Part shown: positions 6,170-28,514 of the stretch, piece by piece
How the letters are laid out: every line of letters begins with the position of its first letter
How positions within the stretch are numbered: the stretch's first letter is position 1
DNA from: Brevundimonas bullata
GTDB taxonomy: Bacteria > Pseudomonadota > Alphaproteobacteria > Caulobacterales > Caulobacteraceae
DNA: 64,000 nt
NCBI RefSeq assembly: GCF_003350205.1
Contig: NZ_QLLC01000018.1
Location: forward strand, 1 to 64,000
Reading direction: 5' to 3'
Translations under genes and position numbers: made by a program
Notes under the pieces: model-generated
What the model saw: the letters and a program-made list of their open reading frames with translations, nothing else
What the model was told of the DNA's origin: nothing
The model's database searches: none

Positions 6170-6380
6170 CCCGCCATAATCCCTGCTGGAGCAAACCGTT
6201 GCGGCTCATGTCGTCAGGATCAGGGACACGGTGATTTCGGCAATGCGCCAGCAGCGGTCATTGAATGGTCGCCGATAGCAGACCTTCTAGCGCGCCCTCC
6301 TACATATCCGCTCCCGCAGGTTGCCACAGGGGGTCGCAAGTCGTACTGCGACGCATTCTTATCATGAGTGCGAGGCGACG

Positions 6381-8549
6381 ATGCGCCCTTCCCTGTTCGG
6401 CCTCCTGGCATCCGTCTCCTGTATGGCCTTGACCAACGCCTCGCCGACCTGGGCGCAGCAAGAGGAACCGACAACTCTTTCCGACATCGTCGTAACAGGA
6501 TCGCAGGTTTCCCTGCCCCCCGCCTATGCTGGGGGTCAGGTGGCTACAGGGGGGCGGGTCGGCTTATTCGGGTCGCTGGACACTATGGACACGCCCTTCT
6601 CCTCGACCAGCTTCACCGAAGACTTGGTCCGCAACCAGCAGGCCCGCAGCGTCGCCGACGTGCTGCAGAACGATCCGGCGGTCCGCGTCTCCAAGGGCTT
6701 TGGCAACTTCCAGGAGCTCTACATCATCCGCGGCTTCCCGGTCTTCTCGGACGACATGACCTATAACGGCCTCTACGGCGTGCTGCCGCGCCAGTACGTG
6801 GCGGCGGAGCTGCTGGAGCGAGTCGAGGTCTTTCGAGGGGCGACCGCCTTCCTGAACGGCGCTGCGCCCGGCGGCAGCGGCGTGGGCGGCGCGGTCAACC
6901 TTGTGCCCAAGCGCGCGCGCAATGCGCCCCTGACTCGTCTGACCGCCGGGTGGGAAGGCGGCGACGAGATCTACGCCGCCGCGGATGTTTCGCGCCGCTT
7001 TGGGGAGGGCGACGCCTGGGGCCTGCGTCTGAATCTGGCCAGCCGCGCGGGCGAAGGCTCGGTCGAGGGCGAAGGTCGCGCCATGACGGTTCTGGGCCTC
7101 GGCCTGGATCGCCGCGGCGATCGCGCCCGATTCTCCGCCGACTGGGGATGGCAGGACAACCGCATCGACGCGCCGCGTCCGCAGGTCACGCCCGCCGGCG
7201 CCATTCCAAAGCCGCCGTCCGCCGACAAGAATTTCGCCCAGCCCTGGACCTATACCGACGAAACCCAGCTGTTCGGCGCCCTGCGCGGCGAGTTCGACGT
7301 GACCGACGCCATCACGATCTGGGCCGCCGTGGGCGGACGCGAAGGCAAGGAGCGTAACAGCCTGGCCAACCCGACAGCGCAAGCCGACGGAAGCCTGAGC
7401 AGCAACCGTTTCGACAACGGACGGCGCGATCAGGTCTTTTCAGCCGACGTCGGCGTTCGCGCTGATTTTGACACCGGACTGGTCGGACATCGTCTGGTCG
7501 CCTCCGCCGCCCAGGTCCAGACGCGGGAGAGCAACTCCTACGCCTTCTCCGATTTCGGCGGCTTCGTCGGCAACATATATGATCCGGTCTTCGTCCCTGC
7601 GCCGCCCGCCGACGCCCTGATCGCCGGTTCGTTGACCGATCCCACCGTCGTCGGGCGGGTCAAGACGACCAGCTTCGCCGTGGCCGACATGATCTCATTC
7701 CTGGACGGCCGCGTCCTGGCCACGGTCGGCGCCCGCTATCAGGAAATCGACACTCGCTCCTACGACTACAACACCACGGCTCGCACCGGCAGGTACGCCA
7801 GCGATGCGGTCACGCCGGTCTTCGCCCTTGTCTACAAGCCCAGCGACAGGGTCTCGCTGTACGCCAACTATTCCGAGGCCCTGCTGCCCGGGAAAATCGC
7901 GCCGGGCGTGATCAACAACCTGCCGGTCGCAAACGCGGGCGAGGTGCTGGAGCCCTTCCGCGCCCAACAGGCCGAGGTCGGCGTCAAATACGACGGCGGC
8001 GCCTTCGGCGGCACGCTCAGCGCCTTCACCACCACCTTGCCGAGCGAGCTTTTCGACCCTGCCGACCGCCTCTATTCCGCCGGCGGTGAGCAGAAGAACC
8101 GGGGCGTCGAGCTGACGGTCTTCGGCGAGCCCGTCATGGGCCTACGGCTGCTCGGCGGCGCGACCTGGCTGGACGCCGAGATCAAGCGCGCGCTGGATGC
8201 GTCGCTGGACGGCAAGTCGCCCATCGGCGTGCCAGAATTCCAGGCCAACCTGAACGTCGAGTGGGATGTCCCCGCCCTCGCCGGCCTCACGCTAGAAGGC
8301 CGCGCCGTCCACACCGGCGCCCAGCCCGCCAGCGCCGACAATGCGATCGAGCTGGACTCCTGGACGCGGTTCGACGCCGGGGTGCGCTACGCCTTCGAGG
8401 CGGGCGGGCAGCCCCTGACCCTGCGGGCGCGGGTCGAGAACCTGGCCGATGACGATCAATGGGTTGCGGTCGGCGGCTATCCGGGCTCGAACTATCTGAC
8501 GCTCGGCGCGCCCCGCACCCTGCGACTGTCGATCTCCACGGAGTTCTGA
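6381..8549 (+). CDS. TonB-dependent siderophore-type outer-membrane receptor
   Basis: A 722-residue receptor with a signal peptide (cleavage likely after TWAQ) and a TonB box-like segment TLSDIVVTG. The plug domain contains NDPAVRVSKGFGNFQELYIIRGF, which I read as the siderophore-receptor plug signature, and the beta-barrel ends in a terminal phenylalanine (LRLSISTEF). It would import ferric siderophores across the outer membrane using TonB energy. The next gene starts 5 bases downstream and encodes a PepSY membrane protein, a usual partner. I chose the ATG at 6381, which gives a proper signal peptide; the more upstream in-frame start would add 20 residues without signal character. Confidence 0.93.
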   Translation: MRPSLFGLLASVSCMALTNASPTWAQQEEPTTLSDIVVTGSQVSLPPAYAGGQVATGGRVGLFGSLDTMDTPFSSTSFTEDLVRNQQARSVADVLQNDPAVRVSKGFGNFQELYIIRGFPVFSDDMTYNGLYGVLPRQYVAAELLERVEVFRGATAFLNGAAPGGSGVGGAVNLVPKRARNAPLTRLTAGWEGGDEIYAAADVSRRFGEGDAWGLRLNLASRAGEGSVEGEGRAMTVLGLGLDRRGDRARFSADWGWQDNRIDAPRPQVTPAGAIPKPPSADKNFAQPWTYTDETQLFGALRGEFDVTDAITIWAAVGGREGKERNSLANPTAQADGSLSSNRFDNGRRDQVFSADVGVRADFDTGLVGHRLVASAAQVQTRESNSYAFSDFGGFVGNIYDPVFVPAPPADALIAGSLTDPTVVGRVKTTSFAVADMISFLDGRVLATVGARYQEIDTRSYDYNTTARTGRYASDAVTPVFALVYKPSDRVSLYANYSEALLPGKIAPGVINNLPVANAGEVLEPFRAQQAEVGVKYDGGAFGGTLSAFTTTLPSELFDPADRLYSAGGEQKNRGVELTVFGEPVMGLRLLGGATWLDAEIKRALDASLDGKSPIGVPEFQANLNVEWDVPALAGLTLEGRAVHTGAQPASADNAIELDSWTRFDAGVRYAFEAGGQPLTLRARVENLADDDQWVAVGGYPGSNYLTLGAPRTLRLSISTEF

Positions 8550-8554
8550 ACCGC

Positions 8555-9643
8555 ATGCGGACGCGGACCATCCGCGCCTGGTCCTGGGTGCACAAGTGGT
8601 CGAGCCTGATCTCGACCGTCTTCCTGCTGATGCTCTGCATCACAGGCCTGCCGCTGGTGTTCACGCACGAGATCGAGGAGGTCCTGTTGCATCAGCAGTG
8701 GGAACCAGCACGCTCAGACGGTTCGAAACTGAACCTGGATCAGGTGCTCGAGGTCGCCCTGTCGCGCCATCCCGGCGACGTCGCGGCCTTCATGAGTTTT
8801 GATGAGGAGCGCCCGGTCGTGAACGTGACGAGCGTCGATCCGAAGGGACCTGCCGGCGTCTACAACTTCCAGCCCATAGACCAGACCAGCGGCGAGGCCG
8901 CCCCGCCTGTCGCCGGCCACCCGGTAATGGAGTTCCTGCTCCAATTGCACACCCACATGTTCCTCGGCCTGCCCGGCATGCTGTTCCTAGGCGCCATGGG
9001 TCTGTTCCTCATTGCGGCCCTAGTGTCGGGCGTCGTGCTCTACGCCCCTTTCATGCGTCGCCTGCCCTTCGGCACGGTTCGGGCATCCAAGGCGGCGCGT
9101 ACACGCTGGCTGGATTATCACAACCTTCTAGGCGCGGTGACGCTAGCCTGGGTTCTCGTCGTTGGCGTGACGGGCGTGGTCAACACTCTGGCGACGCCCA
9201 TCATCGCTTTCTGGAAGGACACGGCGCTGAAGGAACTGACTGCCGCCTACGACGCCCCTGTCGCGGCAGGTGAACGCGCCTCGCTCGATGCAGCAGTGAA
9301 GCGCGCCCAGGCCGCTCTGCCCGGCATGAGGTTGCAGTTCGTGGCTTTCCCCGGTTCTGACTATTCGACGGATCACCACTATGCCGTCTTCTTCCACGGC
9401 GACACGCCGCTGACGATGCACATGACGACGCCAGCGCTGATCGACGCGCGGACTGGCGACCTAGCGGCGGTGGCGCCCATGCCTTGGTACGTGAAGACCC
9501 TGTCGCTGTCCCAGCCGCTCCATTTCGGCGACTATGGCGGGCTGGGTCTGAAAATCCTGTGGGCGCTGCTGGACATCGCCATGATCGTCATCCTGATCTC
9601 AGGCCTTTACCTCTGGCTCGCCAAGCGGAAGAAGACGTCATGA
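8555..9643 (+). CDS. PepSY-associated TM helix protein (putative siderophore-iron reductase)
   Basis: A 362-residue inner-membrane protein with an N-terminal helix after WSWVHKWSS (~residues 8-16), a pair of helices around residues 130-170, a further one near 200, and a last one before the basic C-terminus (LWLAKRKKTS). The arrangement and the W-H-x-W start match the PepSY_TM family. Its members sit next to TonB receptors and are thought to reduce or release iron from siderophores in the periplasm. It is co-transcribed with the receptor (gap 5 bases) and overlaps the next gene by ATGA. Confidence 0.87.
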   Translation: MRTRTIRAWSWVHKWSSLISTVFLLMLCITGLPLVFTHEIEEVLLHQQWEPARSDGSKLNLDQVLEVALSRHPGDVAAFMSFDEERPVVNVTSVDPKGPAGVYNFQPIDQTSGEAAPPVAGHPVMEFLLQLHTHMFLGLPGMLFLGAMGLFLIAALVSGVVLYAPFMRRLPFGTVRASKAARTRWLDYHNLLGAVTLAWVLVVGVTGVVNTLATPIIAFWKDTALKELTAAYDAPVAAGERASLDAAVKRAQAALPGMRLQFVAFPGSDYSTDHHYAVFFHGDTPLTMHMTTPALIDARTGDLAAVAPMPWYVKTLSLSQPLHFGDYGGLGLKILWALLDIAMIVILISGLYLWLAKRKKTS

Positions 9644-10085: not shown

Positions 10086-12563
10086 CTACCGCTGCGGCAG
10101 GGCCCAGGCGATCACATGATCTCCCGCCGGGGTCTCCATGAAATGATGCCCGCCCGCCATTAGCACCAGGTACTGCCGCCCGTCCTGCTCATAGACCATG
10201 GGTCCGGCCTGACCGCCGGCCGGCAAGACGTCGGACCAGACCGTCTCGCCGGTCTCGATGTCGATGGCCCGGATCAGGTCGTCGGTCGTAGCGGCGATGA
10301 AGATCAGCCCGCCGGCGGTGACAACCGACCCGCCGTTGTTGGGGGTGCCGATGTCGAGCGGCAACATCGACGGGATGCCGAACGGGCCGTTCTTGCGCGC
10401 CGTGCCTAGGGGCCGATCCCAGACAGTCTGGCCGGTACGAATGTCGATGGCCCGGATGCCGCCGTAGGGGGGCTGTTTACACAGCATGCCGGTCGAGCCC
10501 ATGCGCCAGCCGGCGTTGACGTCGATGGCGTAGGGCACCCCCATCTGGGGATCGCCTGCGCCCTCGGCGCCTTCCGGGACGCCGCCGCGGGACTCCGGCG
10601 TTTGTTCCTCCAGCCGTGGGTCGCCATGCGGGAACCAGCCCTTTTTATCGGCTTCTGCGCGCGGGACCAAGCGATTGAAGTTAGGCATATCGTTGTAGTT
10701 GGCGATGATCCAGCCCCGCTGCGGATCGACCGCAATCCCGCCCCAGTCCGACCCGCCATTGTAGCCGGGATACTGGATCCAGCGCCGGTCGCTGGTCGGC
10801 GCCGTGTAGATGCCGTCATAGGCGGCCTGGCGAAATCCGATGCGGCAGATCATCTGGTCGATCGGCGACATCCCCCACATGTCGCGCTCGGTGAGGTCGC
10901 GCTTCGCCAGGGTATGGAAGCGCGAGAACGGCTGGGTCGGGGCGCGCTCTTGCGGCTCCACCCCGCCCACGGGCGCGGGACGATCCTCGACAGCCGTCAG
11001 GGGCCGACCGGTGCGACGATCCAGAATATAGAGGTCGCCCTGTTTGCTGGGCAGGACCAGGGCCGGAACGACACCGGCAGGGGTCCGATAGTCGATCAGA
11101 GTCGCCTGGGAGCCGAGATCGTAGTCCCAGACGTCCTTGCGCACCGTCTGGAACGACCAGGCCGGGCGGCCGGTGTTGACGTCCAGCGCCACCAGGGACG
11201 TCGAATATCGATTCTCGGCTTCCGACCGGTCGCCGCTGTAATAGTCGGCGGCTGAGTTGCCCATGGGCAGATAGACCAGCCCGAGCTGTTCGTCGCCCGA
11301 GGCGGTCGTCCACATATTGGGGGTGCCGCGCGTGTACTGGTCGCCCGCGTCCGGCCGGCCGGTCAGGTCGGGCCGGGTCATGTCCCAGGCCCAGCGCAGC
11401 TCGCCCGTGATCGCATCGAAGCCCTGGATCACGCCCGACGGCGCCGACCGGTACTGGCCGTCCAGCACCTGGTGGCCGGTGACGATTACGCCCTGGACGA
11501 TGGTGGGCGCCGAGGTGATCGAGACCATGCCGGGGATCACGTCGCCCATGCCGATCTTGATGTCGACCGCGCCATTGGTCCCGAACCCGGCGCAGGGGCG
11601 GCCGGTCCGGGCGTCTACGGCGATCAGCCGGCCGTCCAGCGTGCCTTCGATGATGCGGGTGGCGCAGGGGGCTGCGGCGGCGGGAGCTGCCGGCGTGGTC
11701 GGCGGCGGAGCGCCGGGCGCACCCGCCGCCGGGGCGGACGCCCCTGCGTCGTGATAGGCCACGCCGCGACAGGCGGCGGTGTACGGAATCCAGTCGTCCG
11801 AAACCTCGGGATCATAGCGCCAGCGCTGGCGGCCGGTGCGGGCGTCCAGGGCGATCAGAATGTTCCGCGCGGTGCACAGATAAACCGTGTCGCCGATTTT
11901 CAGGGGCGTGGTCTCCGCGCCCCATTTTTCTTCCGGGGTATCGCCAGTGCGGAAGGTCCAGGCTCGCTCTAGCTGGCCGACGTTGTCAGGGGTGATCTGG
12001 GTCAGCGGCGAATAGCGCCGCGACGCCTCGGTTCCGCCATAGGTCGGCCAGTCCGCGCCGGCGGCGCGCAGCGAGGGATCGGCCATGGCGGCGAGCGCGG
12101 CGGCCGCAACGTCGGCTGGCGACACGGGCCGGTTGGCCTGAGCGATGACCACGCCGGAAATCAGGGCCCCGACGACAAACACCGCCGCTCCCGTCAAGGC
12201 CAGCCGTCCGCCTCGGCGGGTGTCCAGCACCGGCAGTGCGGCGATCACCAGCACCAGCAGAACGGCCGGGGCGACCACCCGGGGCACCAGGGCCCAGCCG
12301 TTCAGCCCGACCTCCCACACGGCCCAGAGCACGGTCAGCACGAACACGCCGGCGTAGATCAAGGCCCCGGCCAGACGGAGCCGCCACAGCATCACGCCCG
12401 AGGCGATCAGCCCCAGACCGGCGAGCAGGTAATAGGCAGACCCGCCCAATGACAGCAGCCATGCGCCGCCAACCACCAGCACCAGACCGATGATTACAAG
12501 CACAGCGGTCAAGGCACGCACCGCGATGCCGCTGAGGCCCGCTCGCCTGTCTGTTCGCGCCAT
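10086..12563 (-). CDS. gcd: Membrane-bound PQQ-dependent glucose/quinate/shikimate-type dehydrogenase
   Basis: An 825-residue enzyme with about five N-terminal transmembrane helices (~residues 10-150) and a periplasmic eight-bladed PQQ propeller. Typical motifs are YGGTEASRRYSPLTQI, PYTAACRGVAYH and the repeated blade signature DARTGRxxW / DIETGETVW. Such enzymes oxidise aldose sugars at the outer face of the inner membrane and pass electrons to ubiquinone. An unusual Ala/Pro/Gly-rich insertion of about 25 residues lies just before CATRIIEGTLDG. No PQQ biosynthesis gene is in the window. The frame runs on upstream to 12830, but signal-like helices and GGGG spacing favour the ATG at 12563. Confidence 0.93.
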   Translation of the reverse strand: MARTDRRAGLSGIAVRALTAVLVIIGLVLVVGGAWLLSLGGSAYYLLAGLGLIASGVMLWRLRLAGALIYAGVFVLTVLWAVWEVGLNGWALVPRVVAPAVLLVLVIAALPVLDTRRGGRLALTGAAVFVVGALISGVVIAQANRPVSPADVAAAALAAMADPSLRAAGADWPTYGGTEASRRYSPLTQITPDNVGQLERAWTFRTGDTPEEKWGAETTPLKIGDTVYLCTARNILIALDARTGRQRWRYDPEVSDDWIPYTAACRGVAYHDAGASAPAAGAPGAPPPTTPAAPAAAAPCATRIIEGTLDGRLIAVDARTGRPCAGFGTNGAVDIKIGMGDVIPGMVSITSAPTIVQGVIVTGHQVLDGQYRSAPSGVIQGFDAITGELRWAWDMTRPDLTGRPDAGDQYTRGTPNMWTTASGDEQLGLVYLPMGNSAADYYSGDRSEAENRYSTSLVALDVNTGRPAWSFQTVRKDVWDYDLGSQATLIDYRTPAGVVPALVLPSKQGDLYILDRRTGRPLTAVEDRPAPVGGVEPQERAPTQPFSRFHTLAKRDLTERDMWGMSPIDQMICRIGFRQAAYDGIYTAPTSDRRWIQYPGYNGGSDWGGIAVDPQRGWIIANYNDMPNFNRLVPRAEADKKGWFPHGDPRLEEQTPESRGGVPEGAEGAGDPQMGVPYAIDVNAGWRMGSTGMLCKQPPYGGIRAIDIRTGQTVWDRPLGTARKNGPFGIPSMLPLDIGTPNNGGSVVTAGGLIFIAATTDDLIRAIDIETGETVWSDVLPAGGQAGPMVYEQDGRQYLVLMAGGHHFMETPAGDHVIAWALPQR

Positions 12564-12598
12564 GTGCATACCCCGAGGCTGAATATCCGCACTTTGTG

Positions 12599-12623
12599 AA
12601 CCGCGACTGCGCGGAGTGGTTCC
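12599..12623 (-). promoter_or_regulatory. EcfG-like promoter variant before gcd (GGAAC-N16-GGTT)
   Basis: On the minus strand GGAAC (12623-12619) is followed after 16 bases by GGTT (12602-12599), one base off the general-stress consensus CGTT. The -10 ends 35 bases before the gcd ATG. This is one mismatch in GC-rich DNA, so treat it as tentative. Confidence 0.3.
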
Positions 12624-13150
12624 CCTCGGCCGGTATGCGCGGCTTACACGTAGCTGAGCGCAGACGCGCTCGACGCCGCAGGCATCGAAGTGCCATTTCC
12701 CCAGACGGATGTGCGCCTTCGGAGCTTGTTCGACCGCGAAGGCGAAGACGCGATTGAAGCTCTCGATCTGGCAAACCGAAGAGAGCTCCGCGTCGGCCGC
12801 GATCCGCACGTTGAAGAGCCCCGTACGCACCCATCCTCAACCAATGACGCAGCGAGTGAGATCCTTGCGCCGCCAATAGACCCGGTGGACCAGGAAGGTT
12901 GAGGCTATTTCCCATTTCCGAGCTATCCGCTTTTTCGGACCTAACGGGCTCGAAAAGACTGTCATTATTGAACGCTTCGCCTGACGAAGGATTCGACGCG
13001 CGGGCAGGCCGAGAGGTCGGCTTCGCGCCAGGAGCTGACATTGGCCCATATGTGCAAAGCGGACTTCCGGTCCGACTGCTCCCCGTTAGAAGCAATGGAC
13101 AGGATTAGATTCTCACCCTCTCGGATTTCTTCTCGTTTTCGGGGCCTGTC

Positions 13151-13179
13151 ATGTAGGGGGATTATGGAACTGAAGTGTC
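13151..13179 (+). promoter_or_regulatory. ECF-type promoter of the sigma/FecR operon
   Basis: ATGTAGGGGG at 13151-13160 and TGTC at 13176-13179 are separated by 15 bases. The same two elements with the same spacing recur at 14779-14807 before the receptor gene. It lies 47 bases before the sigma start. A repeated bipartite element before both transcription units is what an autoregulated ECF sigma factor would need. Confidence 0.65.
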
Positions 13180-13226
13180 TGAGGAATCGCCCTGGGTGCA
13201 GCCCGGCGTAGCGGAATGGAACGTGC

Positions 13227-13802
13227 ATGGTTGGGGACGGGGAGTTGAAAGCGTGGTTCTTCAGGGAGGTGTTTCCTCTCGAAGCCGCCCTGACTCGCTA
13301 TATCCGTCGCAACTGGCGCAACGAGAATGACGTGGCCGACTTGAGGCAGGACATCTACGCCAAGGTCTACACAGCGGCGCAGCGGCAGCTGCCGCTGAAC
13401 GCCCGCGCCTTCCTGTTCACCACGGCCCGGAACCATCTCATCAATACCGCCAAGCGCGCCAAGATCGTGTCCTTTGATCTGGTGGCCGATTTGGAGGCGT
13501 CCTTCCCCGAGGCGGCCTCGGCTGACCTCGACAGACAGTTGACCGCGCGAGACGAGCTGAGGCGAGTTCAGGCGGGTCTAGAGCGGCTGCCGACGCGTTG
13601 CCGCCAGGTGATGACCTTGCGTCGCGTCGAAGGTCTCTCCACCAAGGAGGTGGCGGCTCATCTCAACATCAGCGTCAGCACCGTCGAGCAGCAGGTGGTT
13701 CACGGTCTCCGGGCGCTCACCGACTACATGATGGGCGGTCAGGGACGGATCAGGCGATCTCCGTCCAAGACGCCCGCCGCCAAAAGCGAGTCTCAATCAT
13801 GA
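13227..13802 (+). CDS. ECF (FecI-type) RNA polymerase sigma factor
   Basis: A 191-residue sigma factor with region 2 in the first ~80 residues (LTRYIRRNWRNENDVADLRQD and ARAFLFTTARNHLINTAKRA) and region 4 at ~120-175 (ELRRVQAGLERLPTRCRQVM, then LSTKEVAAHLNISVSTVEQQ). It matches FecI-like factors of cell-surface signalling systems, which are activated when an occupied TonB receptor signals through FecR. The fecR ATG overlaps its stop as ATGA. The likely targets are its own promoter and the receptor promoter, which share the ATGTAGGGGG-N15-TGTC element. Confidence 0.94.
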   Translation: MVGDGELKAWFFREVFPLEAALTRYIRRNWRNENDVADLRQDIYAKVYTAAQRQLPLNARAFLFTTARNHLINTAKRAKIVSFDLVADLEASFPEAASADLDRQLTARDELRRVQAGLERLPTRCRQVMTLRRVEGLSTKEVAAHLNISVSTVEQQVVHGLRALTDYMMGGQGRIRRSPSKTPAAKSESQS

Positions 13803-14776
13803 GCGCCCGCAACGCAATTGAAGAGACAGCCGCCTATTGGCTGGTGCGCCAGGGCGACGGGCTTTCAGGCGAGGAGCAGGCTCAACTCGACGCCTGGTTG
13901 AACGCCGCCGCCGAACATAAAACCGCTTTCTGGCGCCTCGAGTACAGCTGGGAGAAGGCTGGACGCCTGAGTGCTCTACGTGGGCCCGACACCCTGGTCG
14001 AAGCCATGGTCGAAGCCATGGCCGAAACCACGCCTTCCGCCTCGCCGCGTAGGGGTCAGCTCCGTTGGGCCGTGGGTCTGGCGGCTACACTGGCCCTGGC
14101 GGTGCTGACATCGACCGCCCTCCTCTGGCCCCGGCCAGCGCACTATGCGACCGACACCGGAGAGCGGCGCCTCGTGGCCTTGTCTGACGGGTCGCGTGTC
14201 GAGTTGAACACGGAAACCCGCCTGCGCGCCTCCATGTCGCCGGACAGCCGAGAAGCCTGGCTGGACGAGGGCGAGGCCTATTTCGAGGTCGCCCACGACG
14301 CATCGCGCCCCTTCACTGTTCACATGGGCGATCGCACCGTGCGCGTTCTGGGCACGCGGTTCAGCGTGCGACGCGAAGGCGAAAAGGTGCAGGTTCTCGT
14401 CGCCGAGGGACGCGTCCGCCTCAGCGGCCCTAAAAGCGGTCCCGCCGCCAAACCCGTCCTGCTGGTGCGCGGCGATGTCGCGACCGGCATGGGGGCTTCC
14501 GTCCTGCAAAGCCGGACATCAGACCAGCGCGTGGATGACCAGTTGGCCTGGCGTCGCGGCCTTCTGGTGTTCGACCAGATCACCCTCTCGGACGCCGCCG
14601 CCGAGTTTAACCGCTACAACCAGACCCAGCTGAAAGTGCTCGACCCTCAGACCGCCGCCATCCGCATCGGCGGCAGCTTCGAAGCCACGAACGTAGAGGC
14701 ATTCGTCCGCCTGTTGCAGAGCGCCTACGGCCTGGAAATCGACCACGACGACGGAATTGTAAAAATATCCGAATAG
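13799..14776 (+). CDS. FecR-family anti-sigma/signal transducer
   Basis: A 325-residue protein with the N-terminal DUF4880 segment (AAYWLVRQGDGLSGEEQAQL; DAWLNAAAEHKTAFWRLE). One transmembrane helix lies near residues 85-105 (VGLAATLALAVLTSTALLW), followed by the periplasmic FecR domain with EAYFEVAHDASRPFTVHMGD and VRVLGTRFSVR. A C-terminal STN-binding region (ITLSDAAAEFNRYN) follows. It holds the sigma factor at the membrane and relays the receptor signal. Translation is coupled to the sigma gene by a 4-base overlap. The second promoter element starts 3 bases after its stop. Confidence 0.94.
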   Translation: MSARNAIEETAAYWLVRQGDGLSGEEQAQLDAWLNAAAEHKTAFWRLEYSWEKAGRLSALRGPDTLVEAMVEAMAETTPSASPRRGQLRWAVGLAATLALAVLTSTALLWPRPAHYATDTGERRLVALSDGSRVELNTETRLRASMSPDSREAWLDEGEAYFEVAHDASRPFTVHMGDRTVRVLGTRFSVRREGEKVQVLVAEGRVRLSGPKSGPAAKPVLLVRGDVATGMGASVLQSRTSDQRVDDQLAWRRGLLVFDQITLSDAAAEFNRYNQTQLKVLDPQTAAIRIGGSFEATNVEAFVRLLQSAYGLEIDHDDGIVKISE

Positions 14777-14778
14777 GG

Positions 14779-14807
14779 ATGTAGGGGGTTTCCGCCTTCG
14801 TCTTGTC
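14779..14807 (+). promoter_or_regulatory. ECF-type promoter of the STN receptor gene
   Basis: ATGTAGGGGG (14779-14788), 15 bases, then TGTC (14804-14807). This is identical in both elements and spacing to the site before the sigma gene. It begins 3 bases after the fecR stop and ends 41 bases before the receptor ATG, a standard promoter distance. Confidence 0.65.
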
Positions 14808-14848: not shown

Positions 14849-17800
14849 ATGACTAAGGTTTCGTTCTTGCGGCATATGCTGACCGGCAGTGCCTGCGCTT
14901 TGATCCTGGCGGGAGCAGCAGCGGCGCAGACCCGCAATTTCGACGTTCCGTCGGGAGAGCTGAAAAACGCCCTGGACGCCTATGCGCGTCAGGCCGGCGT
15001 TCAGCTCGTCTACAAGACCGAAGACGTGCGCGGGGTCAGAACGCGCGGCGTTCAGGACGCCGTTGATGCGGAAACCGCCCTTCGTCGTCTGCTGGAAGGC
15101 ACAGGCCTGACCGTTCAGCGCGACAGTTCCGGCGCCCTGGCCATCGTGCGCCAGGCAGTCCAGAAAACGGCCTGGAACGATGATCAGGCGTCGACGGTGG
15201 AAGAAGTCGTCGTCACCGGCTCGCGCCTGAAGAACGTCTTCGACGCCGCCACGCCAGTCGTCAGCATGGAACGCGAAGCCCTGCTCGAGGGCGGCTACAT
15301 GGACCTGGCCGAAGCCCTGACGGACATTCCCGGGGTTGAGGAAGGCAGTTCTCTCGCCAACAATCAGAGCGCGACCCAGGCCAACGGCCTGTCGACCATC
15401 AGCCTGCGCAATCTGGGCGAGAACCGCACCCTGACGCTGATCGACGGCCATCGCACCGTCTCCAACGCAGGCAACCGCAACGCCGTCAGCCTCAGCTCCA
15501 TCCCCGAGTTCTTCATCGACCGCGTTGAAGTGACGACCGGCGGCGGCTCGGCCGTCTATGGCTCCGACGCCATCGCCGGGGTGGTCAACATCATCACCGA
15601 GCGCAACCTGGACGGCTTGCGCGCCCGCATCGTCGGCGGCACGACCCACGACGGCGGCGGCGACTCGATCGAATACTCGGTCGGCGCCGGCGGCCGGTTT
15701 CTGGACGATCGCCTCTATGTCATGGCCGGCGCGACCTACGACCGTCAGTTCAAGCTGAAGGCGACGGATCGCGATCGCGCCCTGCAATCCATTTTGTACG
15801 TGCCAGCCAGCAACACGGTCACCACGCCGGATCGCTCGACCTACATCTCTGGCGGACGCTTCATCAGCGGCCGTTGGTTCTATGATGACAGCGGCCTGCG
15901 CCCCAACATGGTCACCGCCGTCGACGGCTATGAAGACCGTCCCGATGGCACGCTGATCACGCCGCGTGACAACCTGAACGGCGCCGCCAAATTCGACTAT
16001 GCTGTGAGCGACAACCTCAAATTCTGGGGCCAGCTCCTCTATTCCAACGTCGTGACGGATTCGACGCGGGCTCCCACGACCTTCAGCAACACGACCACTT
16101 TCGGCGTCAACGACGAGTTCACGATCGGGCGCATGTCGCGCACCCTGAACCCGTTCGCCCCCGCCGAGATCAAGGCGGCGGCCTCCAGCTCCGGCATCGA
16201 CTTCCGTCGTCGTGTGACCGAGGTCGGCCCCAATCTGATCCACAATGAGCGCGAGACCATCCGCAGCTGGGTCGGCATCGAAGGCAGCCTGCCCAAAGAC
16301 TGGGACTGGAAGCTGACCTACGGCTACGGCAAGTTCTCCGGCGAACAGATCCGCGGCAACACGCTGAACCTGCAGCGCGTCAAGTGGGCCCTTGATTCCG
16401 AGCGGGTCAACGGCGTGGTGCAGTGCCGCGACGCCGCCGCGCGCGCCGACGGCTGTGTGCCGTTGAACCTCTTCGGGGTGGGGTCGATCACGCCCGAGAT
16501 GGCGAACTATATCCGCGCCAACACCTACTATCGTCCGACCAATCGTCAGGACACGATCGAGGGCTATGTCTCGGGTTCCTTGTTCGAGCTGCCCGCAGGG
16601 CCGATCGAAGCCGCCTTCGGCTTCGAAAGCCGCCGCGACCACACCCAGACGCGCACCGATCCGCTGATCCAAAGCGGCGTGGCCAGCTCCTCCTTCCTCC
16701 CGGAATACGAGGGGACCATCAAGGCCAACGAGGTCTTCGCCGAAGCCTCCGTGCCCCTGCTGGCCGACCTGCCGTTCGCCCATCGTCTGACGTTCAACGG
16801 CGCCGTACGGGTCGCGGACTACAATCTCGACGCTGTCGGCACGACGGTCAGCTATCGCGCCGGCCTGCAATGGTCGCCGATCTCGGACCTGCGCATCCGC
16901 ACCGAGTACGCCCGCGCCCAGCGTGCGCCTGACACCAGCGAACTGTTCTCGCCGCCGCGCGATGACGCCGACAACGTCGTCGACGTCTGTAGCGGCGTGA
17001 CGGCCAATACCGCCGGCATCGTCGCCCAGAACTGCCGCGCCGACAGCCGCATCGCCGCCGCCATCGCCGCCGCGTCCGACGGTACGTTCCGCCAGCTGAC
17101 CACCCAGATCAAGGCGCCGAACGCCGGCAACCCGGACCTGTTCGAGGAAACGGCGGACACCTGGACCCTCGGTCTGGTCTATCGTCCCAGCCGTGCGCCG
17201 GGCCTGGAACTCAGCGTCGACTACTATGACATCAAGATCACTGACGTAATCTCGTCGCTGAGCAACTCGGCCCTGCTGCTGGGCTGCTACTCCGACGCAA
17301 ACGGCGCCGACAACGTCTTCTGCGACACCATCACCCGCGACGAAAACGGGCAGTTGGTGCGCATTCTGAACCAGGAGCAGAACCTCAACGAAACCCGCGC
17401 CCGCGGTGTGGACTTGGCCGCATCGTACCGCTTCGACCTGGAGCACTTGAACGTGCCCGGCAAGTTCCGCGCCAGCATGAACTACAGCCGCCGCCTGGAG
17501 TTGAGCACCGAATACGACAGCATCGACAAGGTCGAACTGGTCGACTCGGTCGGCGAGGTGGGCACAGCCAAGAACGAGGCCCGTTACGGCCTGTCCTGGT
17601 ATGATGATGTCTGGAGCGTGCGCTGGTCGTCGCGCTTCATCGGCGAGGTGGTCGACAGCCTGGAACGCAAACAGCAGGCCGTCGCCGCCGGTTGGTCCGA
17701 CCCGCTGTTCCTCAATGTCGACGCCTACTGGCGCCACGATCTGAGCGTCAGCTTCAAGCCTGACCGCAGCAACCCGCAGTTGAAGGTGTTCGGCACCGTC

Positions 17801-17929
17801 AAGAACATCTTCAACAACTACGGCCCCTTCCTGCCGGACGGCACCGACAGCGGCAACGCCTACAACTACAGCTCGGCCTACGGCATCACCGGCCGCGCCT
17901 TCACCCTGGGCGTCCAGGTCGAGTTCTAA
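14849..17929 (+). CDS. TonB-dependent transducer receptor with N-terminal STN signalling domain
   Basis: A 1026-residue outer-membrane receptor. After a signal peptide (cleavage near AAAQT) comes the STN domain (~30-105; FDVPSGELKNALDAYARQAG, LLEGTGLTVQRDS). This domain contacts FecR in the periplasm and marks a signalling receptor. The TonB box and plug follow (EEVVVTGSRLKN; LTLIDGHRTVSNAGNRNAV; GSAVYGSDAIAGVVNI), then the barrel ending in VEF. The RLKN form and large barrel are typical of Caulobacterales and Xanthomonas receptors for organic ligands rather than classic siderophores. A phosphatase gene follows 90 bases downstream, suggesting a phosphorylated ligand. Confidence 0.94.
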   Translation: MTKVSFLRHMLTGSACALILAGAAAAQTRNFDVPSGELKNALDAYARQAGVQLVYKTEDVRGVRTRGVQDAVDAETALRRLLEGTGLTVQRDSSGALAIVRQAVQKTAWNDDQASTVEEVVVTGSRLKNVFDAATPVVSMEREALLEGGYMDLAEALTDIPGVEEGSSLANNQSATQANGLSTISLRNLGENRTLTLIDGHRTVSNAGNRNAVSLSSIPEFFIDRVEVTTGGGSAVYGSDAIAGVVNIITERNLDGLRARIVGGTTHDGGGDSIEYSVGAGGRFLDDRLYVMAGATYDRQFKLKATDRDRALQSILYVPASNTVTTPDRSTYISGGRFISGRWFYDDSGLRPNMVTAVDGYEDRPDGTLITPRDNLNGAAKFDYAVSDNLKFWGQLLYSNVVTDSTRAPTTFSNTTTFGVNDEFTIGRMSRTLNPFAPAEIKAAASSSGIDFRRRVTEVGPNLIHNERETIRSWVGIEGSLPKDWDWKLTYGYGKFSGEQIRGNTLNLQRVKWALDSERVNGVVQCRDAAARADGCVPLNLFGVGSITPEMANYIRANTYYRPTNRQDTIEGYVSGSLFELPAGPIEAAFGFESRRDHTQTRTDPLIQSGVASSSFLPEYEGTIKANEVFAEASVPLLADLPFAHRLTFNGAVRVADYNLDAVGTTVSYRAGLQWSPISDLRIRTEYARAQRAPDTSELFSPPRDDADNVVDVCSGVTANTAGIVAQNCRADSRIAAAIAAASDGTFRQLTTQIKAPNAGNPDLFEETADTWTLGLVYRPSRAPGLELSVDYYDIKITDVISSLSNSALLLGCYSDANGADNVFCDTITRDENGQLVRILNQEQNLNETRARGVDLAASYRFDLEHLNVPGKFRASMNYSRRLELSTEYDSIDKVELVDSVGEVGTAKNEARYGLSWYDDVWSVRWSSRFIGEVVDSLERKQQAVAAGWSDPLFLNVDAYWRHDLSVSFKPDRSNPQLKVFGTVKNIFNNYGPFLPDGTDSGNAYNYSSAYGITGRAFTLGVQVEF

Positions 17930-17944
17930 GACGCTCCAAAGGAC

Positions 17945-17972
17945 CCGGCGACGTTCTGTCGAGCGTCGCCGG
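17945..17972 (+). terminator. Hairpin between receptor and phosphatase genes
   Basis: CCGGCGACG (17945-17953) pairs perfectly with CGTCGCCGG (17964-17972) around a 10-base loop. A second short perfect stem, GGGACC/GGTCCC, follows at 17978-17994. There is no T-run, so this may be an attenuator, processing or mRNA-stability element rather than a strong terminator. Confidence 0.45.
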
Positions 17973-18019
17973 TCTCCGGGACCAATCAGGTCCCATCCGG
18001 TTCATTTCAGGATCAAGCC

Positions 18020-19645
18020 ATGTCAAAACGCTTCGCTGTCGCGATGGCGGCGCTTCTCTGCGCCTCATCAACCCTCGTCCAGGCGCAGGACACGGCCTCT
18101 TCCCCCTCTTCGCCGAAGTTGGTCGTGACCATTGTGGTCGATCAGTTCAGCGCCAACCTGTTCAACCAGTACCGCAGCCGCTGGACAGGCGGCCTGCGTC
18201 GCCTGTCCGACGAAGGGCTAGTCTCAAGCAACGGCTATCAGACCCACGGCCTGACCGAGACCTGCCCTGGACATTCCACGGTCCTGACCGGCGTCCACCC
18301 GGCTCAGACAGGCATCCCTTCCAACGACTGGATCGACCCGACGACGGGCGAGGAAGTCTATTGCCTGGCCGCGCCCAGCAACACGCTGGCCCATGGCGGC
18401 AACAGCGACAACGGCCCGGTGGGCCCCGACAATATCCGCGCCTCCAGCCTGGGTGACTGGCTCAAGGATCAACGCCCTGGCTCGCGCGTCTTCGCCGTGT
18501 CCGGGAAGGACCGGGGCGCGATCAATCTGGCGGGCCATCGCCCCGACGGCGCCTACTGGTTCACCGACGACTTCGGCCTGACCACCTATGTCGAGCCAGG
18601 TCAGAGCGCACCGGCGCGTCTGGCTGCTGTCGACGCCTTCAACGCCGAGTTCCGTCGCCGCCAGGCCACGACGCCCCACGCCTGGACCTATAGTCAGCCC
18701 CGGTGCCACGCGCTGGAAGCCCGTTGGGAAATCAACGGCAGGACGCTGCATTCCAAGGTTCCTCCAGCCAAAGACGACTTCGATTCCTCGCCGGAACTGG
18801 ACGAGGAGACGCTCAAGGCCGCCATCTACCTGATCGACACCCAGAACCTGGGCCAGGGGCAGACAACCGACCTGCTCGGCGTCAGCCTGTCGGCGACCGA
18901 TCGCATCGGCCACGCCTATGGGACGCAGGGGCCAGAGATGTGCGAACAGATGCACCGTCTCGATCAGGCCCTGGGCCAATTCCTCTCTCGCCTCGACACC
19001 ATCTCCGGCGGCGCCGTCGTGGTCCTGACCGCCGACCACGGCGGTTCCGATTTTGTCGAGCGTCTGGCGCAGCGCGGCTCCCCTCATGCCCACAGGATCG
19101 ATTCCGCCCCGCTCGCCGCCGTCAACGCCTCTCTGCGTCAACGCTTCGGCCTGGACGCCTCACCGCTTCAATCGGGCTCCAGCGGCCTGATCGTGGCGGA
19201 CAAGGCCCACAAGACCCTGCCGGAGCCGCTGCGAAGCCAGATCATCGAGGCCGCCCTGCCCATGCTGCAGACCCTGCCCGACATCGTCTTCGTCGAAGCT
19301 CGCGACCGCCTTCTGGCCGACCCCTTGCCTGACAGCGAGCAACCTGAAATCCTCACCCTTCGCGAACGCATGCGCCTGTCAGCCGTGGCCGAACGCTCTC
19401 CCGACATCATCATGGTCCGTGCGGCGAACGTCACGGGCGGCGGACGCGTCGGCGGCAATATCGCCGGCCACGGCACGCCCTGGGACTATGACCGCCGCGT
19501 GCCTATCCTGTTCTGGAAGCCCGGCGCGTCAGCCCAGGAGCGCTTCCTGCCCATCCGCACCATCGACATCGCCCCTACCCTGGCGACCGTCATCGGCGTC
19601 CAACCCCCGCCAGTCTCAGGACGCGCCCTTCCACTCTGGGACTGA
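18020..19645 (+). CDS. Secreted PafA-like alkaline phosphatase family protein
   Basis: A 541-residue protein with a signal peptide (cleavage after VQAQ). It has alkaline-phosphatase superfamily metal motifs: VVDQF (Asp41), DRIGHAYG, TADHGGSDF and AGHGTPWD. Thr81 in ETCPGHST fits the PafA-type nucleophile, with Asn102 (PSNDW) and Lys163/Arg165 (SGKDRGA) matching the PafA substrate-binding residues in order. PafA hydrolyses phosphate monoesters in the periplasm and is active without high calcium. Its position behind the signalling receptor suggests that it processes the receptor's ligand or releases phosphate from it. The enzyme class is secure; the substrate is not known. Confidence 0.88.
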   Translation: MSKRFAVAMAALLCASSTLVQAQDTASSPSSPKLVVTIVVDQFSANLFNQYRSRWTGGLRRLSDEGLVSSNGYQTHGLTETCPGHSTVLTGVHPAQTGIPSNDWIDPTTGEEVYCLAAPSNTLAHGGNSDNGPVGPDNIRASSLGDWLKDQRPGSRVFAVSGKDRGAINLAGHRPDGAYWFTDDFGLTTYVEPGQSAPARLAAVDAFNAEFRRRQATTPHAWTYSQPRCHALEARWEINGRTLHSKVPPAKDDFDSSPELDEETLKAAIYLIDTQNLGQGQTTDLLGVSLSATDRIGHAYGTQGPEMCEQMHRLDQALGQFLSRLDTISGGAVVVLTADHGGSDFVERLAQRGSPHAHRIDSAPLAAVNASLRQRFGLDASPLQSGSSGLIVADKAHKTLPEPLRSQIIEAALPMLQTLPDIVFVEARDRLLADPLPDSEQPEILTLRERMRLSAVAERSPDIIMVRAANVTGGGRVGGNIAGHGTPWDYDRRVPILFWKPGASAQERFLPIRTIDIAPTLATVIGVQPPPVSGRALPLWD

Positions 19646-19791: not shown

Positions 19792-21033
19792 TCACAATTC
19801 GTGATGCTGCCCTTTCACGGCAACCGCCACCGCCATCCCCTGCCCCACAGGCGATAGCGCCACCGCATCCCCAACCGCCAACGGCTGCCCTCCCACCTTC
19901 AACCGACCATAATGCTCCACGCCCTGGGCATCGCGAACCACGACAAAGGCCGCCGCCCCCGCCTCATCGTGAAACCCCGTCTTCACCACCACCCCAGCCA
20001 CCTTCTCGCGCCCCAACAGCCGCACCTCGCGCGCGCCCTCCAGTCGGCGTTGGTTCATCGTCCTGATGATGTCCCGCCGCACTTGTAGGGTTCGCAGCTT
20101 CATCTCCATCTCTGGATCGAGCCGGTATCGACGGCCTGCGCGCATGGCGAGCCCCAGCTCTTCCAGATGCCGTAGCCTCCCCCGGCTTAGCGCCGCCCAG
20201 GCGCCGGTCCCTCCTGCCCCGTCATCGACCATGCCGTCTGCATCCGCCGCCGCCAGCAGTCGTCTATCCAACCCGGTGAACCGATCCGCCTGGGTCTCCT
20301 TCCAGACCCGCCGCTCGGCGTCGACACGCGAAAGATCGCCGAGCCGTTCCTGTGCGACCTCCTGGGCACGGGCTCGAAAGCCGTAGCCCATGTAGTCGCG
20401 AGGGATGACTAGGTCCCGTCCATCCCCACGCCGCCCTCTCACCAGGACATGGGCGTGCGGTTGGTCGGTGTCGTAATGGCAGGTCGCGACCCAGCGCAGA
20501 GCTGGCTCGCCCAGATCGGCTGACACCCGCGCCATCACCTCCCGCACATAGCCCCTAAGATCAGCGATCCGATCGCCGTGCTCGGGCGAGATGATGAAGC
20601 GGAAATGATGGCGGTCAGCGCTCCATCCACGCGTTTCCAAGGCCGCCTCAATCCCATCGTCCGCCCGGTCGAAGAAGTCCGGACGCGCCCCCTCGACGCC
20701 CGCCCCTGACCGGCCGAGATAGGCGACGTGCGCCGCCAGCGCCCCCGCCCGCGTCGCGGCCTTGCCGACATGTCGCGACACCAGGGCCTTCACGATCACA
20801 CGCTGGCGGACATCCATACGGAAGGCCCGGCCCGACCGTCCCTGCGCCGCCCTGAGCACGCCCGAACGATCTCCCAGGGCGAACTGACGCGACGCCGCCA
20901 GCCTCTGGAACAGGCCTGTGCGCACCGGCACCCGATCGATCTTCAGGGAAAGGGGAAGGCGGACCTGGACGCCTTGACGATCTGGAGCCGTACCCAATGT
21001 CAGCCGGTGATCGATCGCCTCGCGGATGAGCAT
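19792..21033 (-). CDS. Relaxase (VirD2/RlxS-like), C-terminally shortened
   Basis: A 413-residue protein resembling the N-terminal two thirds of RlxS-type relaxases. The metal-binding histidine motif is CHYDTDQPHAHVLVRG, preceded by HHFRFIISPEHG and followed by VIPRDYMGYGFRARAQE. Relaxases nick the origin of transfer and lead the strand into the recipient. From memory, full-length relatives run to about 600 residues with a longer DUF3363 region; this one stops soon after GVEHYGRL...VALSP. The nicking domain looks complete, but the tail is missing. No coupling protein or T4SS gene is present in the window. Confidence 0.82.
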   Translation of the reverse strand: MLIREAIDHRLTLGTAPDRQGVQVRLPLSLKIDRVPVRTGLFQRLAASRQFALGDRSGVLRAAQGRSGRAFRMDVRQRVIVKALVSRHVGKAATRAGALAAHVAYLGRSGAGVEGARPDFFDRADDGIEAALETRGWSADRHHFRFIISPEHGDRIADLRGYVREVMARVSADLGEPALRWVATCHYDTDQPHAHVLVRGRRGDGRDLVIPRDYMGYGFRARAQEVAQERLGDLSRVDAERRVWKETQADRFTGLDRRLLAAADADGMVDDGAGGTGAWAALSRGRLRHLEELGLAMRAGRRYRLDPEMEMKLRTLQVRRDIIRTMNQRRLEGAREVRLLGREKVAGVVVKTGFHDEAGAAAFVVVRDAQGVEHYGRLKVGGQPLAVGDAVALSPVGQGMAVAVAVKGQHHEL

Positions 21034-21348
21034 GATGCGCCTCCAGAAAAAGGCCGCCGATCCCTAAGCCGACAACTCTCCGCAAGTCATCCAGAGCCCG
21101 ACCTTCATCGGCTAACCCATCGAAAGAATAGCGAAAAGAAGGCCGCGCCAACACCGCCTTTTATCTTGCCCTAAGGCCCTTTTCGCAGATTTCCAGACAT
21201 CCTCAGCAAAGCTTCGGACACCCGATCAAATGCGATCACGCGTCTCCGCTGTCAAAGGCGGGAGCGCTCAACCGCGTTTCGCTTGGCCAATGCTGCCGCC
21301 GCATAACAAAGAAAAACCCGCCCGGCCTAAGCCGAGCGGGTCGTTCAT
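21034..21348. other. Gene-free stretch with terminator between relaxase and small gene
   Basis: This stretch of about 315 bases has no convincing gene on either strand. It holds the terminator at 21312-21340. A relaxase gene often lies beside its origin of transfer, so this is the place to look for an oriT, but I see no clear inverted-repeat nick region. Confidence 0.4.
21312..21340 (-). terminator. Rho-independent terminator
   Basis: On the minus strand a stem CCCGCTCGGC / GCCGGGCGGG (9 of 10 paired) with a 4-base TTAG loop is followed by TTTTT. It begins 8 bases after the stop of the 58-residue gene that ends at 21349. This is a textbook intrinsic terminator. Confidence 0.8.
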
Positions 21349-21525
21349 TCAGTCTGCCGGACGGTCCGGTTCGTCGTCCCAGTAGGCCGGATCGCAGGGA
21401 TCCAGTCTGCGGATGCAATAGTCGTCCCAGAGATCGGCGGCTGAAAGGCGGATCGCCATCTCGTTCTGCTCGGCTTCCCATTCGATGCGGTCCGGTTCGT
21501 CGTGGTCGGAAGTGTCGGAGGTCAT
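21349..21525 (-). CDS. Small acidic hypothetical protein
   Basis: A 58-residue acidic protein (many Asp and Glu) containing LSAADLWDDYCIRRLDPCDP. GGAGAGG just upstream selects the ATG at 21525 over the one at 21537. It sits inside the plasmid-type module between the DUF2493 and relaxase genes and is closed by an intrinsic terminator. Acidic small proteins on mobile elements are sometimes DNA mimics (anti-restriction), but nothing here proves that. Confidence 0.6.
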   Translation of the reverse strand: MTSDTSDHDEPDRIEWEAEQNEMAIRLSAADLWDDYCIRRLDPCDPAYWDDEPDRPAD

Positions 21526-21542
21526 CACCCTCTCCATGGAAT

Positions 21543-21574
21543 GACTCGCCCGGAGAGACCGAGCGAGTCGTTTT
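21543..21574. terminator. Hairpin after the DUF2493 gene
   Basis: GACTCGCCCGG (21543-21553) pairs with CCGAGCGAGTC (21559-21569; 10 of 11 positions) around loop AGAGA, followed on the plus strand by GTTTT. It lies between the DUF2493 stop (21589) and the next gene's start (21525). It could end or attenuate the minus-strand transcript, although the minus side has only a weak T-run. Confidence 0.5.
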
Positions 21575-21588
21575 CGAGATGCAGATTG

Positions 21589-22533
21589 TCAGGCGACTCG
21601 CGCCTTGACGGCGACGTGTCGCAGCCCGGACTCCATCGCCTTCTGCCCGAGGTTCAGCGCCGGTCCGAACGGACGTCCGTCCACTGACCGCCCCTCATCC
21701 AGAGACCGTGCGAGCGTAAGGCAGCAGGTCGGCTCGAGCGCGATGAGATCATCGTTGGCCCTGAAGGGCGCCGCCTTGCCGTGGGCGTCGAAATCCGCCC
21801 GGGCGAGGATGAGCGTCACCCCCTTCTGCTGCGCCCATCGGATGGCCAGCTTCTCCGCGCCTTTCGCTCCGGTCGTGGCGAGCGCCATGTCCGGCCACTC
21901 CGCCAGGGCCCAGTTCAGGGCGTCGAAGATGCGCGCCGCGTCCTCCGCCCCATCCGCCGACGGCGCGCCCCGGAAGGCCACCACTGCGCCCCGGTGGCGG
22001 GCGTCGCCCGCCCTCCGCTCGCGAACCGCCCGGATGGCTTGCTTGGCCTCCAGCTGCGCCGCCGTCAGGAAGCTCCCCCGGCGACTGCCTCGCCAAGCTG
22101 TCCAGACTTCTCCCGTGGCGACTGTCCAAGCGTCGGCGGCTGCATCCCGTATCCGCTCCGCCGCCTGCGTCGCCGCATCGCCCGCTCGAGCCTTGGCGGT
22201 CGCCTCCTGCAGCTCCACGTCCGCCGCCTCCGATCCATCGAAATCGCGGTCGAGCCGGCGCATTGTATCGCGCGCCCGATCAGCCTCCCGTTCGATCCGA
22301 CCGGCCGCCGAATGAAAGGCGCCGATCAGGGCTTCGCCCAAGAGCGTCTGGAAGTCCTCCAGCGCCGTGTCCGCGATCACGTCCAGAAGTTCGGTCATGA
22401 GCGCTCGCCCAAGCTGGACCAGGGCTTCCTCGGAGGCCTGCGGGCGATGATCGCCGAACGCTGCGCCAAGATCGAAGGCGGAGTCTGATGTCGCGGTGAC
22501 GACCATGGCCGAGCCGGTGTTCGAAGTGTGCAT
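21589..22533 (-). CDS. DUF2493 (SLOG-like) domain protein of mobile elements
   Basis: A 314-residue protein. The first ~180 residues are helical and charged. The C-terminal part has a Rossmann-like DUF2493 domain: VVAFRGAPSADG, then ALATTGAKGAEKLAIRWAQQ and VTLILARADFD. DUF2493 belongs to the SLOG nucleotide-binding superfamily and is frequent on plasmids and integrative elements beside ParB, RadC and relaxase genes, as here. The usual first-strand glycine signature is only partly kept (FRGAP). Its biochemical role is unknown. Confidence 0.78.
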   Translation of the reverse strand: MHTSNTGSAMVVTATSDSAFDLGAAFGDHRPQASEEALVQLGRALMTELLDVIADTALEDFQTLLGEALIGAFHSAAGRIEREADRARDTMRRLDRDFDGSEAADVELQEATAKARAGDAATQAAERIRDAAADAWTVATGEVWTAWRGSRRGSFLTAAQLEAKQAIRAVRERRAGDARHRGAVVAFRGAPSADGAEDAARIFDALNWALAEWPDMALATTGAKGAEKLAIRWAQQKGVTLILARADFDAHGKAAPFRANDDLIALEPTCCLTLARSLDEGRSVDGRPFGPALNLGQKAMESGLRHVAVKARVA

Positions 22534-22856
22534 CGTATCGTTCCCGTTCTGAAAGGCCGAAGCGCCCCATGCGCAACGACCCCGTTCCTGGCCACGTCGG
22601 GGTCCCCGGCGGTCACCGAAGCGGTTCGCCTCTCGCGGGCCGCGAAGGGAAACGGCGAAGCCGTTGACGGCCGGGGTGACGTGTCAGGATGGGAGGTCGT
22701 TGTGTGGGGGCATGTCCTCGCCCACTCGGGGCGAGGACCCTATTCGGCGCCGTCGCGCCGATTGCCACGGAAGACGCGCCGACGCCCCAGACCGCGACGA
22801 CGGCCGCGCCGTCGTCGCCTTCTCCTCCGCGGCGGTCGCCCTGGACACATCAGACG
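22534..22856. other. Gene-free stretch with a hairpin downstream of the gcrA-like gene
   Basis: About 320 bases separate the gcrA-like gene and the DUF2493 gene. Frames open here are antisense shadows. The only structure I see is the strong hairpin at 22714-22738; the promoter of the DUF2493 gene should also lie here. Confidence 0.45.
22714..22738 (-). terminator. Perfect hairpin, probable terminator of the gcrA-like gene
   Basis: GTCCTCGCCC (22714-22723) and GGGCGAGGAC (22729-22738) form a perfect 10-bp stem with a 5-base loop, about 120 bases after the stop of the gcrA-like gene. There is no T-run, so factor-independent activity is uncertain. Confidence 0.45.
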
Positions 22857-23360: not shown

Positions 23361-23440
23361 GGGGATGCTCTTCGTCAGCGAGCCCGATCGGCTCGCCCCC
23401 GACCGCCCTTCCTCCCGCTTTCCGGGACCGGCATGACAAT

Positions 23441-23464
23441 GGCCCGGCGCGTCTGCGCCGGGCC
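23441..23464 (-). terminator. Perfect hairpin after the first ssb gene
   Basis: GGCCCGGCGC (23441-23450) and GCGCCGGGCC (23455-23464) form a perfect 10-bp stem around GTCT, 30 bases beyond the ssb stop at 23494. Only a short T-poor tail follows on the minus strand. Confidence 0.55.
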
Positions 23465-23493
23465 CTGCCGTCCGCCTTCCGACCGGGTTGCAG

Positions 23494-23913: not shown

Positions 23914-23943
23914 GGTCAGTCTCCTTGATATGAGGGTGAGGAT

Positions 23944-24354: not shown

Positions 24355-24477
24355 GTCAGTCTCCTTGTGATCCGAGGCCGGGAAGACCTTCTCCCTCGTT
24401 CCGCCTCGCCCTCCTGAGCCCTTCCTCCCTCCGGAACCGGTTCCGCCGGGCGCCCCCCGACGAAACCGGCTTTCCGG

Positions 24478-26667: not shown

Positions 26668-26695
26668 GGGTCTTCTCCCGCCGGTTCGGCGAGGC

Positions 26696-27646: not shown

Positions 27647-27653
27647 GGCGTCC

Positions 27654-28349: not shown

Positions 28350-28514
28350 CTGAGGGTCCTCGTCGCCGCTCCGGTTTGGAGCCCCCCCTGGCTCCCTTCC
28401 TCCTCACTCCTGATCATCGCTGGACAGAGCAGGCGCACATTCCGGGACCCTCTGGGACCTTGAGGCTTTGTTGACGAAGGCGGTCTCAGGATCGCGCAAA
28501 AGGGAGAAACGGTC

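Follow-up and report, generated by a model that had tools for sequence, protein, structure and literature searches.

The locus described here is of the same type as the FecI-FecR-FecA surface-signaling system of Escherichia coli, whose fecA promoter is GGAAAT-N17-TC, ending in TTGTC; this sequence was confirmed to be present in the E. coli fecR-fecA gap. According to excerpts of two reviews, transcription of E. coli fecIR is controlled by Fur and is not autoregulated (PMC9249621), and FecI-like ECF sigma factors are among the few exceptions to ECF autoregulation (PMC8103513). HemI of S. maltophilia was tested and, as an excerpt of the report states, is repressed by Fur and is not autoregulated (PMC12772443). 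Its authors, in the same excerpt, regard this as atypical and connect it with a truncation of the receptor, so that published views on FecI-like autoregulation differ. In S. meliloti, transcript starts have been mapped upstream of fecR and of the receptor gene, and an extract of that study describes no promoter motif as identifiable there (PMC6180224). Among the literature matches listed, none described the motif reported below or autoregulation of a FecI-like system in this bacterial family.

The window, that is, the whole stretch of 64,000 nucleotides that was analyzed, contains an ECF sigma gene, a fecR-like gene downstream of it, and a TonB-dependent receptor gene whose product carries an STN domain (Table 1), which is the composition of a FecI-FecR-FecA-type surface-signaling system. 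The sigma factor has two domains, sigma2 and sigma4, and no others, with scores of 24.3 bits for Sigma70_r2 (cutoff, 24) and 56.8 bits for Sigma70_r4_2 (cutoff, 25.7). In the FecR-like regulator, the FecR domain (81.7 bits) and DUF4880 (29.3 bits) both exceeded their cutoffs, and FecR_C scored 19.9 bits, below its cutoff of 24.4. Scores against the NCBIfam equivalog models were far below the cutoffs for FecI (46.5 of 260 bits), FecR (80.4 of 385 bits), and FecA (79.8 of 1,100 bits), and the window system is therefore not the ferric citrate system itself. It is accessory in its genus, with a sigma factor at 70% identity or more in 3 of 131 genomes.

Table 1. Features of the sigma-receptor locus, in window coordinates
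Feature	Position	Strand	Evidence or remark
Predicted sigma-dependent promoter 1 (autoregulatory; site 1)	13151..13179	+	-35 TGTAGGGGG, N15, -10 TGTC; counterparts, some diverged, before orthologous sigma genes
ECF sigma factor, FecI-like, 191 aa	13227..13802	+	Pfam Sigma70_r2 and Sigma70_r4_2; helix alignment
Recognition helix, residues 147-160	13665-13706; Ser151 codon 13677-13679	+	Helix alignment
FecR-like regulator, directly 3' of the sigma gene	13799..14776	+	Start overlaps sigma stop; start codon identified in the sequence
Predicted sigma-dependent promoter 2 (receptor; site 2)	14779..14807	+	-35 TGTAGGGGGTTT, -10 TTGTC; counterparts in orthologues; placed as the E. coli fecA promoter
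TonB-dependent receptor, 1026 aa, N-terminal STN, plug, and barrel	14849..17929	+	STN, Plug, and barrel all above cutoff
Receptor-phosphatase gap, strong hairpins	17927..18019	+	z = -5.7; no exact motif site within
PhoY/PafA-like alkaline phosphatase	18020..19645	+	Scores below the PhoY and PafA model cutoffs

The alkaline phosphatase gene is possibly cotranscribed with the receptor gene. A phosphatase (80% identity) also lies 3' of the receptor in G176, which together with G204 is the genome with the closest orthologous locus; no match to it was found in a 15.5-kb stretch of G204. The gap between receptor and phosphatase forms a strong double hairpin, and its counterpart in G176 also has a hairpin (z = -2.5); this structure possibly tunes receptor versus phosphatase transcript levels. 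Just upstream of the sigma operon, the opposite strand encodes a membrane-bound PQQ-dependent dehydrogenase of the glucose/quinate/shikimate family that scored above its NCBIfam cutoff (10086-12830). A separate uptake locus nearby has a second TonB receptor, which has no STN match, and then a PepSY-type membrane protein (6321-9643). Downstream, the region 19792-37818 encodes a DUF3363 protein (above cutoff, with a relaxase-like reading), a ParB-HTH protein, and a Toprim protein, as well as a pair formed by an IMS-family protein, presumably ImuB-like, and a DNA polymerase III alpha protein (33044-37818). Possibly, this region is a mobile element that has integrated next to the operon.

The element ATGTAGGGGG-N15-TGTC occurs in two copies on the plus strand of the window, one before the sigma gene and one before the receptor gene, and an earlier note on this DNA had placed both correctly, with identical elements and a 15-base spacer in each. 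Its distances to the start codons were likewise accurate: site 1 ends 47 bases before the sigma ATG, and site 2 ends 41 bases before the receptor ATG. Two bases separate the fecR stop codon from the start of site 2. The geometry of the paired sites is ECF-like, with a (T/C)GTC -10 element. The earlier note had also judged a chance origin very unlikely and proposed a genome-wide search for the pattern. The pattern was matched in 0 of 100 shuffles of the whole window. When the two upstream regions, of 150 bases each, were shuffled 2,000 times with dinucleotide frequencies preserved, any common 10-mer occurred in 36 shuffles, and 10 plus 4 common bases at one spacing (13 to 19) occurred in none. 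The search of the whole genome (85 contigs, 3,407,715 bases) returned two exact matches, which are the two window sites, and the reversed control pattern gave no match in the same genome. When 149 genomes from the family were sampled, G176 and G204 not being among them, the pattern was matched in the window's own genome only. A chance repeat or a recent duplication of a short stretch, for which nothing but the small copy number speaks, is hardly credible: although the elements are identical, the spacers and flanks of the two sites differ, and the idea is contradicted by the conservation of the sites in orthologous loci with sigma factors 85% and 72% identical to that of the window.

In the first of these loci (G176, 85%), TGTAGAGGT-N15-TGTC precedes the sigma gene, and TGTAGGGGG-N15-TGTC, an exact match to the full pattern, precedes the receptor gene. 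The second (G204, 72%) carries TGTAGGGGA on the sigma side and TGTAGGGGG on the receptor side. Absence of the motif from the orthologous operons had been named in advance as evidence against self-regulation; instead, both sites are present in both operons. As G204 is without the leading A of ATGTAGGGGG and the sigma copy of G176 has two changes in the 9-mer, the core of the element is TGTAGGGG-N16-TGTC. More distant orthologues likewise carry sites before both genes but with different -35 words: TGTTGAGGG and TGTTACGGG in G287 and G355, TGTTACGGC and TGTTACGAG in G266, TGTTACGGG and CGTTACAGG in G676, and CCGCAAGG and TCGCAAGG in G158a. The -35 word varies by lineage, and the two copies of one locus tend to covary, in step with the recognition helix of the sigma factor. 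The spacer is 15 bases in all clade pairs except at the receptor site of G210 (16 bases). In G287, G355, and G269, the sigma-side copy departs from the receptor word (TGTTGAGG versus TGTTACGG); because sigma-side copies can differ from the receptor word in these loci and in G176, the feedback may be weak. In G287 and G269 (L097 and L099), a short sequence, TGGTCAGGCCT, is directly repeated, and the receptor-side site lies immediately 3' of its second copy; this repeat was not seen in the upstream region of the window as printed. In G158, about 8.7 kb separates two FecI-like sigma loci that are related to each other (L105) but have different -35 words, CGCAAGG and CTCAGG, so that one genome offers a natural comparison.

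Pairing was quantified in a clade set of 14 loci, the window included, with sigma factors about 50% identical or more. Nineteen loci were seen, and five were dropped: G678 (printed upstream sequences equal to those of G676), two G156 loci (match scores equal to those of the G158 loci; one was compared, and its upstream sequence was identical), and G138 and the second G158 locus, for which no receptor was found directly 3'. L033 duplicates G287. A matched pair was defined as at least 7 of 9 -35 bases alike, anchored on GTC, with 300 shuffles per locus and uncorrected P values. Matched pairs were present in 9 of the 14 loci (P ≤ 0.04 each) and were suggestive in three (G269, G149, and G134; 6 of 9 bases, P = 0.10 to 0.16). 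For G269, the automatic best receptor match lay elsewhere, and the in-register TGTTACGGG, also 6 of 9, was chosen by eye; the receptor starts of G134 and of C11 in the window's own genome were set by hand. The two near-identical remaining loci (G060 and G257; sigma 57 to 58% identical to the window's) have a receptor site and no sigma-side site. The best -35 identity of the sigma and receptor upstream regions averaged 6.57 of 9 over the 14 loci and 6.38 without the window, compared with 3.71 in shuffles, where the highest of 300 shuffled means was 4.79.

These data bear on the possibility that the sigma factor uses the receptor site only, as in E. coli, the sigma-side copy being weak or a relic and sigma-fecR being transcribed from a housekeeping promoter. 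Such an arrangement would agree with G060 and G257, with the departing sigma-side words of G176, G287, G355, and G269, and with E. coli fecIR and S. maltophilia hemI, which excerpts of PMC9249621 and PMC12772443 describe as not autoregulated. However, the two window copies are identical, and both sites are recognizable in 8 of 13 relatives (P ≤ 0.04 each), so we consider this arrangement unlikely. A simple sigma-70 promoter scan of the region found none; it says little, since 0.8 was expected in shuffles and alphaproteobacterial promoters lie outside the model.

Outside the clade, 7 of 57 FecI-like loci reached P ≤ 0.03 (G529, G675, C23 of the window's own genome, L022, L031, L143, and L145), and pairing is therefore not general among FecI-like loci. 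In G529, 106 bases separate the end of the receptor-side match from the aligned start, and this match is probably due to chance. When 54 loci were pooled with cross-locus pairs as the control, the signal was modest (mean, 5.09 versus 4.73; 94 of 20,000 permutations as high). By eye, L134 and L136 (family f2, of the same taxonomic order) have a receptor site only, and L139 to L141 and G833 (family f9, of the same taxonomic class) have a sigma site only. In 20 loci with both sites, some chosen partly by eye and some not significant singly, mismatches averaged 2.10 of 9 within a locus versus 4.59 between loci. This set and that of the helix correlation below took in L144 (pair P = 0.22) and G138, where a divergent receptor is preceded by CGTTACCAG-N15-CGTC and the sigma gene by TGTTCGGGG-N15-CGTC, only 4 of 9 bases being alike.

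The -35 words were also compared with the helix of sigma region 4.2. The helix HTVERQLTLG is associated mostly with GTTACGG words, VDTVEQQMVHG mostly with TGTT(A/G)(C/A)GGG words, VSTVEQQ and AKTVENQ with TGTAGGGGG, and ExxVEND with (A/T)A(A/C)GGA and similar words. Over 29 loci, with sites partly picked by eye, helix distance predicted -35 distance beyond the distance over residues 20 to 109 (partial r = 0.37; 0 of 5,000 permutations as high), and the reverse partial r, for residues 20 to 109, was 0.17 (287 of 5,000 permutations as high). This tracking of the encoded sigma factor's helix argues against the sites being read by another ECF sigma of the same genome or serving as operators for a DNA-binding protein. 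Cross-talk is conceivable, as the genome has 11 FecR matches; yet of the four own-genome paralogous loci compared besides the window locus, the one that is paired (C23) has a different matched pair, TTATACGGA and GTTTACGGA, and by eye the element is nonpalindromic and has promoter spacing. Both alternatives together are highly improbable.

The word is TGTAGGGGG in the lineage of the window (G000), G176, and G204 and TGTT(A/G)(C/A)GGG in most rows of its sister group. Residue 151, Ser or Lys in the window lineage and Asp (five) or Asn (G138) in the six sister rows, is the only position of the helix (residues 147 to 160) that separates the two groups. In an alignment to the sigma-E region 4 structure 2h27, it falls just before the Thr-Val that precedes RSRIFRAR of sigma-E. 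G675, with Ser at this position, has a TAG word too (TAGCGGA). As f9 sigma factors with Glu at this position use TAGGGG words as well, residue 151 is not the whole code. The window, G176, and G204 form one branch of the tree (100/96), and support for the six-row sister branch is weak (88/84). A single change to TGTAGGGGG may therefore have taken place, and its link to residue 151 rests on one event. That a clade of FecI-type sigma factors is autoregulated, with a lineage-specific -35 word at the sigma and receptor genes coevolving with the recognition helix, is a tentative proposal; if true, it would represent a natural specificity switch that yields insulated sigma-promoter pairs.

Further target sites were not evident. 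TGTAGRGG-N16-TGTC occurs at 3 places in G000, 4 in G176, and 3 in G204, compared with 1, 0, and 0 for the reversed control. The sigma and receptor sites account for two places in each genome, and the remaining 1, 2, and 1 places have unlike spacers. Nor does the window's own genome point to a broader regulon: TGTAGGGG-N16-TGTC with up to two mismatches was found at 325 places versus 336 for the reversed control, which is no excess. Of 12 sites with one mismatch, 11 were examined (L066 was left out). Each of the 11 is covered by a frame of 600 bases or more, which does not discriminate because the true site 2 is also covered by such a frame, and for 5 of them an 80-residue frame starts no more than 120 bases away. 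The regulon thus appears to be small, with no further targets evident, and single extra ones may exist. A Fur pattern scan gave one match with three mismatches at position 2618, which is at chance level and away from the operon.

Overall, the two sites are very probably promoters of the sigma factor encoded in this operon, serving sigma-fecR feedback and induction of the receptor gene, probably with the phosphatase gene. By analogy with the FecI-FecR-FecA paradigm, the STN domain of the loaded receptor would signal via FecR, and the sigma factor would be freed or activated. It would then use site 2 to transcribe the receptor gene, probably together with the phosphatase gene, and site 1 to transcribe its own sigma-fecR operon, resulting in positive feedback. 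The interpretation of the locus as that of a self-regulated ECF sigma factor with a target motif readable from the locus is supported by the sequence comparisons: position, spacing, uniqueness in the genome, and covarying copies all fit. The word "expected" in the earlier note needs qualifying for this subtype, since reviews call E. coli fecIR nonautoregulated and FecI-like ECFs an exception, although the HemI paper takes such a lack of feedback to be atypical.

The novelty is modest: one branch of a family that is frequently called nonautoregulated seems to be autoregulated, and its -35 code can be read in part. Methods that predict ECF target promoters draw on autoregulated members, and an excerpt of PMC8103513 counts FecI-like ECFs among the exceptions. 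If some FecI-like clades are autoregulated, the locus of each would reveal its target motif, and the paired sites of relatives would inform the code by which sigma region 4 recognizes the -35 element. As receptor-only (E. coli-like) and sigma-only layouts seem, by eye, to be present in related branches, gain and loss of feedback should be traceable.

The window system resembles E. coli FecI-FecR-FecA in the order of sigma, fecR, and STN receptor genes and in a putative promoter with a TTGTC -10 element in the fecR-receptor gap, which has counterparts in relatives. It differs in the matched site before the sigma gene, since E. coli fecIR is not autoregulated, and in that the scan showed no Fur-like box close to the operon, whereas fecIR is Fur controlled. 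The receptor gene is followed by a phosphatase gene in the window and by the importer genes fecBCDE in E. coli. With S. maltophilia HemI-HemR-HemAD it shares a FecI-like operon of sigma, regulator, and receptor. Although FecI-like ECFs are listed as an exception to ECF autoregulation (PMC8103513, in excerpt), the locus, at the level of its sequence, has what autoregulated ECF sigma factors generally have, namely, a predicted sigma-operon promoter with the same -35 and -10 elements as the target promoter.
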